Of a stretch of DNA of 64,000 nucleotides, positions 4,463 to 41,316 are shown in pieces. Origin of the DNA: Bordetella sp. 02P26C-1 (GTDB taxonomy: Bacteria > Pseudomonadota > Gammaproteobacteria > Burkholderiales > Burkholderiaceae_B). The translations under genes were made by a program, and so were the position numbers. Position 1 is the stretch's first letter. Every line of letters starts with the position of its first letter. The notes beneath the pieces were generated by a model. The model saw only the letters and a list, made by a program, of their open reading frames with translations, was not told the DNA's origin and did no database searches. The DNA lies in NCBI RefSeq assembly GCF_009763255.1, contig NZ_WSJB01000001.1, positions 1 to 64,000 on the forward strand, given 5' to 3'.

Positions 4463-6553
4463 TTAAGGCGTCACAACATGACCCGCCAGTGCTTCCTGTG
4501 CTTCAGTGACCCCCACATCGGCGAGTCTCTGGAGCCTACGCTTGCTGCTCACGGTCAAACCGTTGCGTATCAGATCGGCAATGACGGTTTTCGTATCGGC
4601 GCCAGACTGCACGACGACTCTGAGGCGCAATAACTTCACTACGTTACTATCGTCCCCGCTTAAGTCCATCAGGGCGGATCGGCCTATCTCGGGGTGACGG
4701 GCAATCAGGTTCTTTGCTGCATCGATACGCCATGATTCGGCCGCCCGCAACAGAGCGAGTGATAAGCGGCCACCGAGGGATTGCAAAATGCGCTGAACCG
4801 GAGCCTGGATCTGAGGCTGCTCCAAGCGGAAGCTCAGCATGAGTGCCGTATCCACATCTGCGTATCCCCATGAAATCAATTGGCCCGCAGCCTCGTATTC
4901 GCCGGTCGCTAATGCGTGGATCAGAGCGGCGGACCCGTTTACCCGGAGGTTGATCAGGGTCTGTGCCAATGGCACATGTTTCATCCGGGCAGCATAGACC
5001 AGTTCATTTGTCCCATTGCTCAACGTCGGGATAAACCACTGCATAAAGGCGTCATCCTTTTCCTGAATAAGATCTATGATGACCCTGGCGACGATAGGGT
5101 GCGAAACACATGGGGCGGCGCCCAAATGGCGTACGTAGCGTGCGTCTGCCTCAATCAGAGCGGTTGCCACAGCCATGAGCCGGTTTCTAACCGCATAACA
5201 AAGCGCTTGGGTGGCGTCTACGCCGGCATGAAGGAGTACCTGTACCCCAGTCATATCGCCGGAGTTCAGTGCCGTTAGTGCATTTTCCCATTTCGCTCCT
5301 CGGTCGATCAGCGTTTTGACTTGTGCGACCTCTTTCAGATTAATAACGTTGATGAGGGCCTTGTCTAGCTGCGCCGAGGGATGAGCACGGAGTGTGGCGA
5401 TTTCCCTCGATATCTTCTCGCGAACATGTTGAGGCATGTTGCTGATATCCGCTTCCACAGCATAGAGCAGCTTGTAATTTTGCCAGGCGGCCCTCAGCTG
5501 TGGGGTTCCCGGAAGCGCATTGGTGAAAAGCGCAAACAATTTTTCCTGGGTTTCGATAGGGACGGTTGCCCCTGCCGCGACCAGTGTCCGCATAGCCGCG
5601 AGGTTCCCGTCGCAGATTATTTTCTCTATTTTGAGGGCGAATAACGCCTTGGCTTCGGCCAATATTTTTATCGCATCAATATTGCCAAGCGCGGCAATTC
5701 GTGCGAACTCTGGGTACATTGTGGGTGTTATGCACTGCACGAGCTTCGCCATTGTGCCTGGCATTGTGGATGGAGCGTCCGACCTGAAGTCTTCGGCAAT
5801 ATGGCAAAACGCATGGGCTACTACTCGGGCATGCGCTGGTCCAATGTCGGGCGCGCAAAGAAGAGTCAAGCCGTCGGACTGGTTAGCGCTAGCTAGCTTG
5901 ACGAGGGCGGCCGCCACTATTGAAGGTTCAGAGGAGAGAGCCTGGACTTTTTTTCTATCGCCGGCGATGGCCGCTGCACTGAGCACTTCAGAGCTCGGGG
6001 CGCCTAGAACCGTCAGCAAACGTATCGCGGTACGCCATTGATGTTCGACCGCAACGTCAAGGGCTTGAGTAATATTGACGCCCGATTTGGTCAACCGCTG
6101 CACGGCGTGGCCTTTAATTTCCTCTGAGACGTCGTCTTGCTGCAGCACTCTGGCCAGGGCATAGCAATTTTGTGCTTCATCAAGCTGTAGCAGGGGAAGC
6201 AAGTCCGGGTCATTTTCGGGATTTAAAAGTGCGCACACTAGCGGTGTGCGCCCCGTGTCATCTCTGGCGTTGATCAGTTCTTTCACCGTATCCGGGTGTT
6301 CGCTGAGGAGATGCTTGGTGATCGAGTTGCTGCCGTGATCGGTCGCGACATGCAGTACGGTCAGGCCTCTTTCGTAGCGTATTTGAGCTAAGTCATCGGA
6401 GTGCCTTTCGATCAAGGCGGTCAAGTCAGGTACCTCGTCTCCGATAATAGCGGCCAGGATTAAGCCCTTGGTTGGACGGTGTTCCGGGTCGGCATTCACG
6501 TTGTCAAGGAAGGACGCGGCTTGGCTTGAGACATTAACGGCAGGGGCGCGCAT
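4463..6553 (-). CDS. Large ankyrin-repeat protein (second paralogue)
   Basis: About 696 residues from the ATG at 6553, which has CGGAG 6 bp upstream; longer starts at 6610 (ATG) and 6622 (GTG) are possible but have weaker ribosome-binding sequence. N-terminal ankyrin units are recognisable (RGLTVLHVATDHGSNSITKH, DDTGRTPLVCALLNPENDPD); most of the rest is degenerate helical repeat. There is no signal peptide. The C-terminal region is homologous to the protein at 1741-4242, with an added ~70-residue tail ending AGHVVTP. The two genes are co-oriented, 220 bp apart, and both are less GC-rich than their neighbours. The upstream end abuts a decayed transporter locus, so the pair may have arrived with the rearrangement that destroyed it. 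Confidence 0.85.
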   Translation of the reverse strand: MRAPAVNVSSQAASFLDNVNADPEHRPTKGLILAAIIGDEVPDLTALIERHSDDLAQIRYERGLTVLHVATDHGSNSITKHLLSEHPDTVKELINARDDTGRTPLVCALLNPENDPDLLPLLQLDEAQNCYALARVLQQDDVSEEIKGHAVQRLTKSGVNITQALDVAVEHQWRTAIRLLTVLGAPSSEVLSAAAIAGDRKKVQALSSEPSIVAAALVKLASANQSDGLTLLCAPDIGPAHARVVAHAFCHIAEDFRSDAPSTMPGTMAKLVQCITPTMYPEFARIAALGNIDAIKILAEAKALFALKIEKIICDGNLAAMRTLVAAGATVPIETQEKLFALFTNALPGTPQLRAAWQNYKLLYAVEADISNMPQHVREKISREIATLRAHPSAQLDKALINVINLKEVAQVKTLIDRGAKWENALTALNSGDMTGVQVLLHAGVDATQALCYAVRNRLMAVATALIEADARYVRHLGAAPCVSHPIVARVIIDLIQEKDDAFMQWFIPTLSNGTNELVYAARMKHVPLAQTLINLRVNGSAALIHALATGEYEAAGQLISWGYADVDTALMLSFRLEQPQIQAPVQRILQSLGGRLSLALLRAAESWRIDAAKNLIARHPEIGRSALMDLSGDDSNVVKLLRLRVVVQSGADTKTVIADLIRNGLTVSSKRRLQRLADVGVTEAQEALAGHVVTP

Positions 6554-37468: not shown

Positions 37469-38911
37469 ATGTCAGTATTGCGTCGCACCAAAATTGTCGC
37501 CACGCTAGGGCCCGCGACGTCCACGCCCGAGCAGTTGGAAGCCCTGGTGCGTGCGGGCATCGACGTCGCGCGATTGAACTTCTCGCATGGCACGGCCGAC
37601 GATCACCGCGAGCGCGCGCGCCTCGTGCGCGAAGCCGCCGAGAAGCAAGGTCGCTATGTCGCCATCATGGGTGACTTGCAAGGGCCAAAGATCCGTATCG
37701 CGCGCTTTACCGATAAGCAGATCGAGTTGCATGTCGGAGATAAGTTCGTGCTGTCGAATAGTCACCCCAAAGACCAGGGCACGAAAGAGATTGTCGGAAT
37801 CGACTATCCCGAACTGGTGCAGGACTGCAAGCCTGGCGATGAGCTGTTGCTCGACGACGGCCGCGTGGTGCTGGTTGTGGATCGCATTGTCGATGATGCC
37901 GTGCATACGACGGTGACGGTCGGTGGCCCGTTATCGAACAACAAGGGTATTAATCGTCGTGGTGGGGGCTTGTCCGCGCCGAGCCTGACGGATAAGGACC
38001 GCGCCGATATTCTGGTGGCGGCCGAACTTGAATTGGAATATGTGGCCGTCTCGTTCCCGCGTTATGGCAGTGACATCGACGAAGCGCGCCAATTGCTGCG
38101 CGCCGCCGGCAGCGACGCGTGGATTGTCGCCAAGATTGAGCGCGCCGAAGCGGTCGTCGATGACGAAGCCCTGGACGCATTGATCCGCGCCAGCGATGGC
38201 GTCATGGTCGCGCGTGGCGACCTGGGGGTCGAAGTGGGCGACGCGGAACTGGTGGGCATCCAGAAACGCATCATTCAGCACGCGCGCACGCTGAACAAAG
38301 TGGTCATCACCGCCACGCAGATGATGGAATCGATGATCTCCAGTCCATTACCCACGCGTGCAGAGGTATCCGACGTTGCCAATGCGGTGCTGGATTACAC
38401 CGACGCGGTCATGTTGTCCGCTGAAAGCGCATCGGGTAAATATCCCGTCGAAGCGGTGCAGGCGATGGCACGCGTGTGCCTGGGCGCGGAAAAGCATCCC
38501 ACCAGCATGAAGTCGCATCATCGCCTGGGCGAAACGTTTACGCGCTGCGATGAGACGATCGCACTCGCGGCCATGTATGCGGCCAACCATTTCCCCGGTG
38601 TCAAAGCCATCATCGCCTTGACCGAAAGCGGCCATACGCCGCTCATTATGTCGCGCATCCGTTCGGCGGTGCCGATCTATTGCTATAGCCCGCATCACCA
38701 CACGCAACATCGCGCGGCGATGTTCAGGGGGGTATATACGGTGCCGTTCGACCCATCGGCATATGACCCGTCGGAACTGAGCGACGCGGCGATCGGCGAA
38801 CTGAAAAAACGTGGCCGTGTGCAGCCGGGCGACTGGGTGATCCTGACCAAGGGCGATTCCTACCGCGATAGCGGTGGGACCAACGGGATGAAAATCCTGG
38901 TTGTGGAATAA
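37469..38911 (+). CDS. pyk: Pyruvate kinase
   Basis: A 480-residue enzyme converting phosphoenolpyruvate and ADP to pyruvate and ATP. Domain A begins LRRTKIVATLGPATSTPEQL; NFSHGTADDHRERARLV, the MGDLQGPKIRIARF loop, the active-site motif IVAKIERAEAV and ITATQMMESMISSPLPTRAE are all intact. The C-terminal regulatory domain is present. The start follows AGAGAGGTGATTC. It is monocistronic, ending at a clear hairpin. Confidence 0.96.
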   Translation: MSVLRRTKIVATLGPATSTPEQLEALVRAGIDVARLNFSHGTADDHRERARLVREAAEKQGRYVAIMGDLQGPKIRIARFTDKQIELHVGDKFVLSNSHPKDQGTKEIVGIDYPELVQDCKPGDELLLDDGRVVLVVDRIVDDAVHTTVTVGGPLSNNKGINRRGGGLSAPSLTDKDRADILVAAELELEYVAVSFPRYGSDIDEARQLLRAAGSDAWIVAKIERAEAVVDDEALDALIRASDGVMVARGDLGVEVGDAELVGIQKRIIQHARTLNKVVITATQMMESMISSPLPTRAEVSDVANAVLDYTDAVMLSAESASGKYPVEAVQAMARVCLGAEKHPTSMKSHHRLGETFTRCDETIALAAMYAANHFPGVKAIIALTESGHTPLIMSRIRSAVPIYCYSPHHHTQHRAAMFRGVYTVPFDPSAYDPSELSDAAIGELKKRGRVQPGDWVILTKGDSYRDSGGTNGMKILVVE

Positions 38912-38917
38912 GGCGGG

Positions 38918-38972
38918 ATTACGCGTTTCGCATAGCGTAATGACTGCGCATAGCCTTCGCGCAGTCTGGTTT
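38918..38972 (+). terminator. Two stem-loops after pyk
   Basis: ATTACGC (38918) pairs with GCGTAAT (38935-38941), and right behind it GACTGCGC (38942-38949) pairs perfectly with GCGCAGTC (38959-38966), followed by TGGTTTCTC. The second stem with its T-rich tail is the better intrinsic terminator candidate for pyk. Confidence 0.65.
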
Positions 38973-39126
38973 CTCGCATCAACCGCGAACTCCGAACTTG
39001 GGCTGAACTGACACAACTATAAAGCCGGTGATGCGGTGCCTCCAGCGTCGAATTGGCGTGGCGGGACACCGCATTGTTAGCAAGATAAGTTCGCAAGCCC
39101 GTACAACATCAAGGTTGGAGTTAACG

Positions 39127-39486
39127 ATGCATGAAATCTCTTTATGTCATTTGGAGCGTGCTTCGGGGGGGATCGACCGCATGTCCCTCGTTCTATTCGG
39201 TAGTTTTGGCGCCCCAATCGGCTATGTGCTCGGATCGCAGCTTCTGGGGGGCTGCTCGCCCGCGGGGGTGATTCAGCAAGTCTGCACAGGATGGGTCGTA
39301 CCCACCATTGCCAGCTACGTCCCTGGCGTCCCGAGCAGCCTCATGTCCCCGGGGCACGCTGTCGCTGCCAGCGCACTGGCTGGCGCTTTGCATAGCGCCA
39401 TCGATTTCGGCTTTTCAAGCGCGCCGGTGGTACATAACGACACCTCAGCCACCAACGCTCCCAGCATGTCGATTGTCAGGGCGTGA
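39127..39486 (+). CDS. Bacteriocin-like peptide with double-glycine leader (A)
   Basis: Encodes 119 residues. The ATG at 39127 follows TTGGAG with good spacing; the open frame upstream to 39028 has no such signal. The N-terminus MHEISLCHLERASGG has the pattern of Gly-Gly leaders (short, polar/hydrophobic heptad, ending GG) removed by C39-peptidase ABC exporters. The presumed mature part (about 104 residues) is Gly/Ala-rich and hydrophobic: LFGSFGAPIGYVLGSQLLGG with GxxxG spacing, two cysteines (GGCSPAG, QQVCTG), then VAASALAGALHSAID. It parallels the next gene in leader, glycine pattern and cysteine position. No exporter or obvious immunity gene is adjacent. A class II bacteriocin/microcin is the best guess; a small membrane protein is the alternative. 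Confidence 0.6.
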   Translation: MHEISLCHLERASGGIDRMSLVLFGSFGAPIGYVLGSQLLGGCSPAGVIQQVCTGWVVPTIASYVPGVPSSLMSPGHAVAASALAGALHSAIDFGFSSAPVVHNDTSATNAPSMSIVRA

Positions 39487-39547
39487 GCGCTACCGAAGAC
39501 GGCGACTCGATTCGCCAACCTAACCATTAACCATTTGGAGAAACACG

Positions 39548-39883
39548 ATGCAAACAATTTCTTTACACGACGCTTCGCGCGTCGGCGGTGGTATGGAAGA
39601 GGCATATTTGGCGATGTTAGGAGGTATAGGCGGCTTTCTCGGCCATACCACCGGCTCCATGATGCAAGGGAAGTGCGACTGGGGCGCGTTACCTGCAGCC
39701 GCTGTAGGTGCGGGTCTGGCGTTCGCAACGGCGCGCTTTAGTCCACATGGCCCTGCGTATACGCCTCCCGTGGCCGCCGCATTTGTCGGAACAATCTATG
39801 GACTGATGACAACCCTCGACGAACTCAGATTGGGCAACATCGCAGTGGAATTGCCACGATTGAGTTACGCGAAAAACCAATAA
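39548..39883 (+). CDS. Bacteriocin-like peptide with double-glycine leader (B)
   Basis: Encodes 111 residues behind TTGGAGAAACACG. The leader MQTISLHDASRVGGG shares the xxISL...GG pattern of the upstream peptide. The mature region begins MEEAYLAMLGGIGGFLGHTT, has one cysteine (QGKCDWG), and then small-residue-rich hydrophobic stretches (ALPAAAVGAGLAFATA, PPVAAAFVGTIYGLMT). It lies 61 bp after peptide A, so the pair could be a two-component bacteriocin. Its last 19 bp overlap the 3' end of the convergent membrane-protein gene at 39865. I do not recognise a close named relative. Confidence 0.6.
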   Translation: MQTISLHDASRVGGGMEEAYLAMLGGIGGFLGHTTGSMMQGKCDWGALPAAAVGAGLAFATARFSPHGPAYTPPVAAAFVGTIYGLMTTLDELRLGNIAVELPRLSYAKNQ

Positions 39884-41094
39884 CACACCGCGATCGACGC
39901 CAGTACGCCGGCGAGATCGGCCAACAACGCGCACCCCACTGCATGGCGCGCGCGCAGGATGCCGACCGACCCGAAGTACACGGCGAGCACGTAGAACGTC
40001 GTTTCGGTGCTGCCCTGCATGACGGAAGCCAGCAGCGCGGGAAAGCTGTCCACACCGAAATGGCTCATGGTCTCTAGCATCATGGCGCGTGCGGCGCTGC
40101 CGGAAAACGGCTTCACCAGGGCCGTCGGCAGCGCATCCACCCACCGTGTATCCCAGCCAATGGCGTGCGCGAGCCAACGGATGCCGTCCAGCGCGATATC
40201 GAGCGCGCCCGAGGCGCGCAGCACGCCTACCGCGCAGAGCATGGCCACGAGATAGGGCAGCAGACTCTTGGCCACATCGAAACCATCCTTCGCGCCCGCG
40301 ATAAAGGTTTCGTAGACGGGGACACGCTTGTAGGCGCCGATAATCAGAAAGGCCAGCAGAATGCCGAACAGCATCAGGTTGCCCATCAAGGACGATAGCG
40401 TGGCGATGGCCACGGCAGACATCCCGGCCAGCATCGCCATGAACCCGCCCAGCAGCAGCGCGGCACCACCCAGCCAGGCTAACACCACGGGGTCGTAGAG
40501 TTTCAGGCGCTGGCATAGCGCGACAGACAGCAAGCCCGCGACCGTGGACGCGCTGGTGGCTAGCAAGATAGGCAGGAACACCATGGTGGGATCGGCAGCG
40601 CCCTGCTGCGCGCGAAACATAAACACCGTGATCGGCAATAGCGTCAGTGAAGATGCGTTCAACACCAGAAACAGGATTTGCGCGTTGCTGGCGGTTTCCG
40701 GGCTGGGGTTCAGCGTCTGCAATTCGCGCATCGCGCGCAACCCGATCGGCGTCGCGGCATTATCCAGGCCTAAACCGTTGGCGGCGAAATTCAGGGTAAT
40801 CAGCCCAATGGCGGGATGGCCACGCGGGACCTCGGGCATCAGGCGCGCGAATAAAGGTCCCAGCAGCACCGCGAGTTTTTCCACGAGACCCGCGGCCTCG
40901 GCGATACGCAGAAAGCCTAGCCACAGTGTCAAGGTGCCAAACAGCAGCACCATGACCTCGACCGAGATGCGCGCCATGTCAAACAGGCTGCCGACGATCT
41001 GGCGGAACACTTCGGGATCACCGATATAGAGCCAGCGATGCAGCGCGGCGGCGGCGGCCGCGAGAAAAAATCCCAACCAGAGTTTATTGAGCAT
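39865..41094 (-). CDS. SpmA/SpmB-type nucleoside-recognition membrane protein
   Basis: About 409 residues, polytopic. The N-terminal half resembles SpmA (NFAANGLGLDNAATPIGLRA, ELQTLNPSPETASNAQILFL) and the C-terminal half SpmB (FIAGAKDGFDVAKSLLPYLV, MLETMSHFGVDSFPALLASV, GSTETTFYVLAVYFG), that is, two Gate/nucleoside-recognition domains fused. These proteins are named from Bacillus spore maturation, but non-sporulating bacteria carry them too; a transport role is suspected. The frame opens at 41160, but MLNKLWLGFFLAA (41094) begins the first helix; no good ribosome site is seen for either. The gene is convergent with and overlaps peptide B by 19 bp. Confidence 0.8.
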   Translation of the reverse strand: MLNKLWLGFFLAAAAAALHRWLYIGDPEVFRQIVGSLFDMARISVEVMVLLFGTLTLWLGFLRIAEAAGLVEKLAVLLGPLFARLMPEVPRGHPAIGLITLNFAANGLGLDNAATPIGLRAMRELQTLNPSPETASNAQILFLVLNASSLTLLPITVFMFRAQQGAADPTMVFLPILLATSASTVAGLLSVALCQRLKLYDPVVLAWLGGAALLLGGFMAMLAGMSAVAIATLSSLMGNLMLFGILLAFLIIGAYKRVPVYETFIAGAKDGFDVAKSLLPYLVAMLCAVGVLRASGALDIALDGIRWLAHAIGWDTRWVDALPTALVKPFSGSAARAMMLETMSHFGVDSFPALLASVMQGSTETTFYVLAVYFGSVGILRARHAVGCALLADLAGVLASIAVCYWFFA

Positions 41095-41316
41095 GACGAA
41101 GACGAAGACAGCGTTAACGTGCCGTGCATGGCGACGCTCATTGTCGCAGACTTGCCCCAACGCGCACCGATTTCTGTTCTGCCCGCCTGTAACTCGGGTG
41201 CGAGCCGGGCAGACGGTGCGTTTTGGCCGGATATAGGGGATTCATCCCATGTGCAGGGAGCGTCAATTCGGTATGCTTGATAGGGATACGCGGAGACTGT
41301 GAATAAAAGGTTGCAT

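Follow-up and report, generated by a model that had tools for sequence, protein, structure and literature searches.

A tandem pair of double-glycine-leader proteins in a Bordetella genome, its dispersed relatives and a C39-peptidase exporter on another contig

Two small leader genes between pyk and an SpmA/B-like gene

The window, which is the whole stretch of 64,000 nucleotides analyzed, carries two adjacent small genes on the forward strand, A1 (39127-39486, +) and A2 (39548-39883, +), encoding double-glycine-leader proteins of 119 and 111 aa. Both start with ATG, a gap of 61 bp separates them, and a GGAG ribosome-binding site precedes each (39117..39120, + for A1 and 39537..39540, + for A2) at a distance of 6 or 7 bases from the ATG, which bears out the two neighboring genes with good ribosome sites described in an earlier note made from the sequence alone. 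The leader codons are MHEISLCHLERASGG in A1 (39127..39171, +) and MQTISLHDASRVGGG in A2 (39548..39592, +); C39 cleavage would be expected after this 15-residue leader, leaving predicted mature parts of residues 16 to 119 and 16 to 111. Upstream lies pyk (37469-38911, +), which we take to encode pyruvate kinase, and downstream, convergent to A2, an ORF for what is presumably an SpmA/B-like membrane protein (39865-41160, −), both flanks having been named by sequence recognition without a family search. The end of A2 overlaps the end of the latter ORF by 19 bp. As the earlier note had stated, no exporter gene lies beside the pair and no immunity gene was seen there: the flanks are these two genes, and the ORF list at the pair holds only overlapping antisense or nested ORFs. 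A 137-aa ORF with a TTG start on the minus strand (39315-39728), which overlaps the pair, was taken as spurious.

A leader weight matrix was constructed from 13 leaders encoded near C39 exporters, six from the genome under study (G000), four from a second genome of the same genus (G002) and three from other genera; A1, A2, and every dispersed gene described below were left out of its training. Among 3193 ORF starts in the window, A2 ranked first (11.1) and A1 second (9.7), followed by a start scoring 7.5, and in both proteins the GG-type leader stands directly after the start. The proposal that these leaders are of the C39-exported type thus agrees with a matrix derived from exporter-adjacent leaders. 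As background, 393,590 bases with 19,097 starts were scored, among them the remainder of the window, and six of these starts reach 9.7: four training leaders, one other good leader (L091 6322-6603) and one false start. A1 and A2 could instead be small inner-membrane proteins that are not exported and have a GG-like N terminus by chance, which would suit their hydrophobic segments and the lack of a Pfam bacteriocin match above cut-off; this is very improbable given the top two ranks with an independent matrix, the single false start in the background, and the co-occurrence of the family with an exporter. The training leaders scored 15.4 to 27.2 when each was left out in turn, so the A1 and A2 leaders look real but divergent, ranking at the top of the window yet below that range. 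Ranked among the nine dispersed leaders of G000, they stand with C2 (9.3) and B0 (10.8) as the four lowest, the others scoring 12.9 to 22.6.

A1 and A2 share 35% identity in an alignment of residues 1 to 43, which takes in the leader (E 2e-6 within 22 proteins compared), in keeping with the earlier description of related peptides; the similarity of the mature parts is weak (E 0.0016 in the same set of 22), and much of the likeness is due to the leader. By eye, both proteins have Cys43 and Gly at positions 25, 28, 32, 36, and 41. The matching Cys to which the earlier note drew attention is therefore present in the pair but is not kept across the family, and we rejected it as a key feature, the proteins of gene C1 and of g1 in G002 having no Cys in the mature part. 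The GxxxG-like runs survived in part: small-xxx-small spacing modestly exceeds the expectation from composition (p 0.016 for A1 and 0.04 for A2), but the longer glycine-zipper pattern does not, with counts of 1 in A1 and 3 in A2 where composition predicts 1.6 and 1.5. A long glycine zipper was also rejected as a family hallmark, since its content is not above composition in nearly all of the 22 members.

Homology to a known membrane-protein family, which the earlier note had set against its own reading, was not found: no convincing family for A1 or A2 emerged from Pfam, NCBIfam, PADLOC, or PHROGs, the best match having E 0.042 and a score of 14.1 bits where the cut-off is 108. The best PHROGs match had E 0.068, PADLOC gave none, and in Pfam neither MccV (PF17508) nor Bacteriocin_IIc (PF10439) matched above cut-off. 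Searches of the pair proteins, P0001 against phages and P0002 against plasmids, gave no match. The AlphaFold2 model of A1 is all-helical, with low confidence (pLDDT 62.1, pTM 0.33).

The only C39 exporter of the genome and the dispersed relatives

A single match to Peptidase_C39 (PF03412) was found in the 4.1 Mb genome, on contig C1 (111910-112296), and A1 and A2 are on contig C8. The expectation that a transporter would have to be encoded elsewhere was thus supported by the genome search. The exporter is an intact protein of 727 aa with Peptidase_C39, ABC_membrane, and ABC_tran domains, and its neighbors on the same strand encode a 422-aa HlyD protein (HlyD_3) and a 506-aa outer-membrane efflux protein (OEP, TolC-like). 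Its Cys45, His118, and Asp134 have the spacing of the catalytic residues Cys32, His105, and Asp121 given for CvaB in excerpts from PMC9746304, and all three are kept in the exporter of G002, which is 84% identical to that of G000. ABC-type bacteriocin transporters of the PDB match the exporter, 8vp3 over residues 34-718 and 4ry2 over 36-718.

Six small leader proteins (p1-p6) follow the exporter genes on the same strand in G000, and four leader proteins follow the exporter in G002. The proteins p2, p4, p5, and p6 (L002 6467-8287) form a separate subfamily, in which three of the leaders end in GA or GC rather than GG; a match of p4 to the RebB "killing trait" family was dismissed as chance (E 0.14). 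The protein p3 resembles ga, its counterpart in G002 (E 6e-8 in the set of 22), and each of the two is encoded close to the channel gene. An acidic mature part with one strong C-terminal hydrophobic peak marks related leader proteins encoded by the channel gene of either genome, at L002 7660-7902 and at L036 5252-5551; they are candidates for an immunity or accessory protein.

Relatives of the pair were found by a search with A1 and then with a six-row profile, bringing the leader genes found in G000 to nine dispersed and six exporter-linked. The dispersed genes comprise four tandem pairs and one orphan. Contig C24 carries the orphan B0 (L027 8830-9141) and the pairs B1/B2 (L027 9346-9690 and 9713-10036) and B3/B4 (L027 12613-12927 and 12976-13308), and between the two pairs lies a gene for a 700-aa autotransporter (PF03797; L027 10179-12281, −), possibly a surface partner of the leader proteins. 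On contig C12 is the pair C1/C2 (L035 7825-8136 and 8277-8639), of which C1 was new by profile (E 1.2e-8) and C2 was taken from the ORF list; it sits between genes that we take, from their sequence, to be tilS and lysC, and no immunity gene was seen beside it. The second gene of each pair lies 22-140 bp behind the first, and the two are presumably co-transcribed. The dispersed loci share only short nucleotide similarities, the strongest being 53 bp at 85% between g1 and g2 of G002, which covers the ribosome site, start, and leader codons. In 11 of 11 paralog pairs tested, codon position 3 differs most, an outcome that the protein-based alignment favors.

Proteins of the family have about 100-120 aa, with the 15-residue leader followed by up to three hydrophobic segments. 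In the aligned members, segment 1 is rich in small residues, segment 2 often contains GWxxPxxxD, and segment 3 has a GxxxG-like motif, near the end of the protein; the number of hydropathy peaks per member ranges from 0 to 3. The AlphaFold2 model of the C1 protein is all-helical, with moderate confidence (pLDDT 69.5, pTM 0.55), and Foldseek gave no match to solved structures at E 0.001, the best matches (E 3.1) being regarded as chance. A 14-row family profile had no match in the PDB at E up to 1. Two of the 14 members match MccV (PF17508) at E up to 1, all below cut-off, the best being g1 (E 0.0013, 19.7 bits against 27); the best NCBIfam match of the 14 members, C2 against a sugar-phosphate isomerase family (E 5.5e-4, 19.9 bits against 88.3), was rejected as chance.

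Four tandem pairs in one genome might suggest, in line with the two-component bacteriocin proposed in the earlier note, a two-peptide bacteriocin of the classic class IIb type whose immunity function is encoded elsewhere, perhaps in the leader-plus-one-helix protein by the exporter, and the relatedness of p3 and ga, both near the channel gene, would fit such an arrangement. However, the dispersed relatives found in G002 (g1-g3) are singles, and the mature parts are of about 100 aa, which is long for class IIb. The single genes in G002 argue against a classic bacteriocin, as does the fact that no immunity gene was seen next to pair A or pair C, and we consider the class IIb explanation unlikely. 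Pairing as such does not look obligatory, since the G002 relatives stand alone.

Distribution of the family and its common upstream element

Within the genus, a C39 match is present in two of nine genomes, G000 and G002, and the family profile finds members in these same two only; the seven others have neither. Conservation of the pair in relatives had been named as a check in the earlier note; the dispersed family members found in G002 stand singly. Profile matches that were themselves profile members numbered eight in G000 and three in G002, and g1 (5e-12), g2 (3.6e-9), and g3 (1.8e-4) of G002 were found though absent from the profile. Among 268 genomes of the taxonomic family, with up to 18 candidates per genome scored, matches were convincing in G000 and G002 only; one in G127 (E 8.6e-4) lies inside a 629-aa frame and was judged unconvincing. 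C39 matches, strong or weak, were obtained in 122 of these 268 genomes. A C39 exporter alone is therefore no predictor of the protein family; the type shared by G000 and G002 is one, on two genomes.

The surroundings of 17 further C39 exporters were read. The nearest eight of these exporters are 49-53% identical to that of G000 and the others 30-47%, and in four of the 17 surroundings (L088, L090, L091, and L096) a good leader protein was seen that is of a different kind. At L090, a common start region is found in two leader ORFs near a C39 exporter (5151-5528 and 6156-6332); the second is much the shorter of the two and looks like a duplicated copy with a changed frame. The good leader at L091 (6322-6603), from another genus, belongs to a 93-aa Ser-rich protein near a C39 exporter. 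A sample of 399 genomes of the order, with up to 12 candidates per genome scored, gave G000 and three weak profile matches (E 1.7e-4 to 8.3e-4). At the L146 match site an 89-aa leader protein was seen, and none at those of L145 and L147. At L146 1501-2021, in another family of the order, this Gly-rich protein has the leader MKVLTDQDLENIQGG, and the end of its gene is overlapped by an 88-aa hydrophobic ORF that could encode its immunity protein.

The intervals that hold the pairs A and C are expanded. The interval that separates pyk from the convergent SpmA/B-like gene (38912..39864), which contains the pair minus the last 19 bp of A2, was compared with that of five other species, pyk being out of reach in three more: it is 959 bp here as measured, 548 bp in G002, and 85, 102, 169, and 175 bp in four others, in which no family match was found. 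The tilS-lysC interval is 1151 bp here, 468 bp in G002, and 103-253 bp in the other seven genomes. The longer intervals could reflect either gain here or loss elsewhere, and no mobile-element boundary was noticed at the loci in passing.

A common element, GTCYKATTTT, was found in a set of 10 upstream regions, from which second genes of pairs were left out: those of A1, B0, B1, B3, C1, the exporter operons of G000 and G002, and g1-g3. The motif scored 171.8; in 40 control sets, each made up of ten real upstream regions of other genes and searched with the same number of restarts, the highest score was 139.9; the ten regions are not all independent, since the two exporter operons are orthologous. 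No copy within two mismatches was found upstream of C2 or p6. In nine of the ten regions a −10-like hexamer (TA-N3-T; TATAAA for A1), in some cases chosen by eye, lies 53-57 bp after the start of the element, a count that uses the −165 copy of two candidates at B1, chosen after the spacing was known, where the motif search had taken the copy at −130; at g1 the hexamer, by eye, lies at 44 bp. Consensus sigma-70 promoters were sought and rejected, none being found. The arrangement suggests co-regulation of the exporter operon with the dispersed genes through this element.

In front of A1 the element takes the degenerate form GTCTGGTTTC (38964..38973, +), 163 bp before the gene, and the hexamer of the putative promoter is at 39018..39023 (+), 54 bp after the element start. 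This is the weakest copy of the set and is not significant alone, 14 of 113 control upstream regions scoring as well. In a bipartite scan trained without A1, element and hexamer together ranked sixth of 127,842 window positions, with a score of 12.6, compared with 20-26 for most other sites, whose scores are partly circular because the training hexamers had been picked by eye. An inverted repeat, ATGCGGTG / CACCGCAT (39031-39074), lies between the hexamer and A1 and could form a hairpin or serve as an operator.

With the weakest element at A1 and low leader scores within the set, export or expression of A1 and A2 could be poor, and the window pair might even consist of decaying or silent paralogs that drift and are no longer exported or expressed. 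The third-position GC of A2 could be taken in the same sense, its value of 0.55 being the lowest of 12 genes tabulated; it is 0.68 in A1 and 0.73 in pyk, and overall GC is 0.61 in A1, 0.56 in A2, and 0.61 in the window. Yet both frames are intact, the ribosome sites are good, GG is kept at the cleavage point, and the codon-position pattern is as in the other pairs, which makes decay quite improbable.

Known systems and possible roles

Among the closest described counterparts are the contact-dependent CdzC/CdzD proteins of Caulobacter. According to excerpts from PMC5380434, these are likewise two adjacent small, hydrophobic, Gly-containing proteins whose leaders end in G[GAS], and type I secretion genes are present in the genome; A1 and A2 differ in size (119 and 111 aa against 86 and 84), in having the exporter on another contig and further dispersed paralogs, in showing no adjacent small membrane immunity gene (CdzI), and in glycine zippers no more frequent than composition predicts. 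Both proteins fall within the length and leader range used for Cdz-like candidates (60-151 aa, leader ending in G[G/A/S]), with 119 and 111 aa and GG; the search for such proteins within about 10 kb of CdzAB-like genes has no counterpart here, the exporter being on contig C1 and the pair on C8. Among other Cdz-like systems, immunity genes were found only sometimes, as the same excerpts put it (PMC5380434). Cdz-like proteins are further characterized by one or two uninterrupted glycine zippers, by surface aggregates, and by contact-dependent killing; the zipper counts in A1 and A2 are 1 and 3, with a modest excess of the looser small-xxx-small spacing. Class II microcins, as portrayed in the available part of PMC9746304, share the leader type, a C39-ABC exporter with the catalytic triad, a membrane fusion protein, and a TolC-like channel, and the pair departs from them in the tandem arrangement, the exporter on another contig, and the lack of a cognate immunity gene in view. 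For a Moraxella GG bacteriocin, the exporter and immunity genes are given as adjacent in the text available of PMC2761928.

Cyanobacteria offer parallels of another kind. In Synechococcus elongatus, several GG-leader proteins (EbfG1-4) are served by one C39 exporter, PteB, and ebfG1-4 are reported in extracts of PMC4997328 to be co-transcribed, whereas the cargo here is scattered. The cyanobacterial double-glycine precursors covered in passages of PMC3140520 use one machinery, with some precursors encoded elsewhere, and have a similar leader consensus, M(R/K)ELX3E(I/L)X2(I/V)XG(G/A), quoted there; they belong to another phylum and have other mature proteins. A1 and A2 fit this consensus in part only, and other members of the family fit it better. 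Leader and exporter are of known kinds, and the mature proteins, the scattered tandem pairs, and the common element are without precedent in the literature searched. No report of such a scattered GG-leader set in Bordetella-like bacteria was found in that literature, subscription sources being largely outside the search.

We think it rather probable that A1 and A2 are members of a scattered set of double-glycine proteins with three hydrophobic segments, which would be regulated in common, secreted by a type I route in the microcin or Cdz manner, and probably active on cell envelopes. The single C39-peptidase type I system of the genome would export them, with cargo genes scattered singly or as tandem pairs and with exporter, adaptor, and channel in one gene run that has its own leader proteins. 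From what is known of C39 systems, the common element may turn on the exporter at the same time as its cargo. Cutting off the leader after Gly-Gly would fall to the C39 domain, and the ABC/HlyD/TolC-like channel would then carry the helical mature proteins out of the cell. There, being hydrophobic, they would most likely hit the envelopes of neighbors or stay on the producer surface, as class II microcins and CdzC/CdzD do, and the two partners of a pair may act together. Killing by the mature proteins is speculative, with chances that we put at about even. The leader and exporter type, the hydrophobic helical build, the divergence, and the patchy distribution favor an envelope-active role.

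Strong divergence combined with patchy distribution is more typical of weapons. Both are seen here, in the strongly divergent mature parts and in the presence of the family in two of nine genus genomes, and together with microcin-type leaders and exporter they speak against what we regard as a serious alternative, although one less likely to be correct than not by a clear measure: that the C39-exported proteins are not toxins and serve in biofilm formation, surface assembly, self-lysis, or signaling. Such a role would be consistent with the observation that pairs A and C have no immunity gene in view next to them, with several related genes sharing an element, and with the autotransporter gene between two pairs on contig C24. 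Precedents, as far as excerpts of the sources go, are EbfG1-4 in Synechococcus biofilm development (PMC4997328) and Nap in gonococcal autolysis (PMC11798529).

Returning to an envelope-active, co-regulated set, it may also represent a new architecture of type I secretion in a proteobacterium, an expandable set, scattered over the chromosome, of paired three-helix proteins with one trans-acting exporter, one promoter element, and no dedicated immunity genes, a possibility toward which we remain somewhat doubtful. If it were true, new cargo pairs could be added at any site between housekeeping genes. Bacteriocin searches often look for precursors near the exporter, so scattered cargo is easily missed, and the set may be a hidden group of competition or surface proteins. 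If one regulon unites the lone exporter with the pairs, the element and the leader would offer a way to hidden cargo, and the system would allow a test of how a cell could harbor numerous envelope-active proteins when individual immunity genes are not in evidence. A search of G000 and G002 for MRE-type starts with a GGAG site gave 15 places in G000 and 11 in G002, of which six and three are known leader genes; the pattern is blind to leaders such as MHEI or MQTI, so that known members such as gene C1 are missed. The same search also yielded an 85-aa frame at L135 with GG at positions 14-15.
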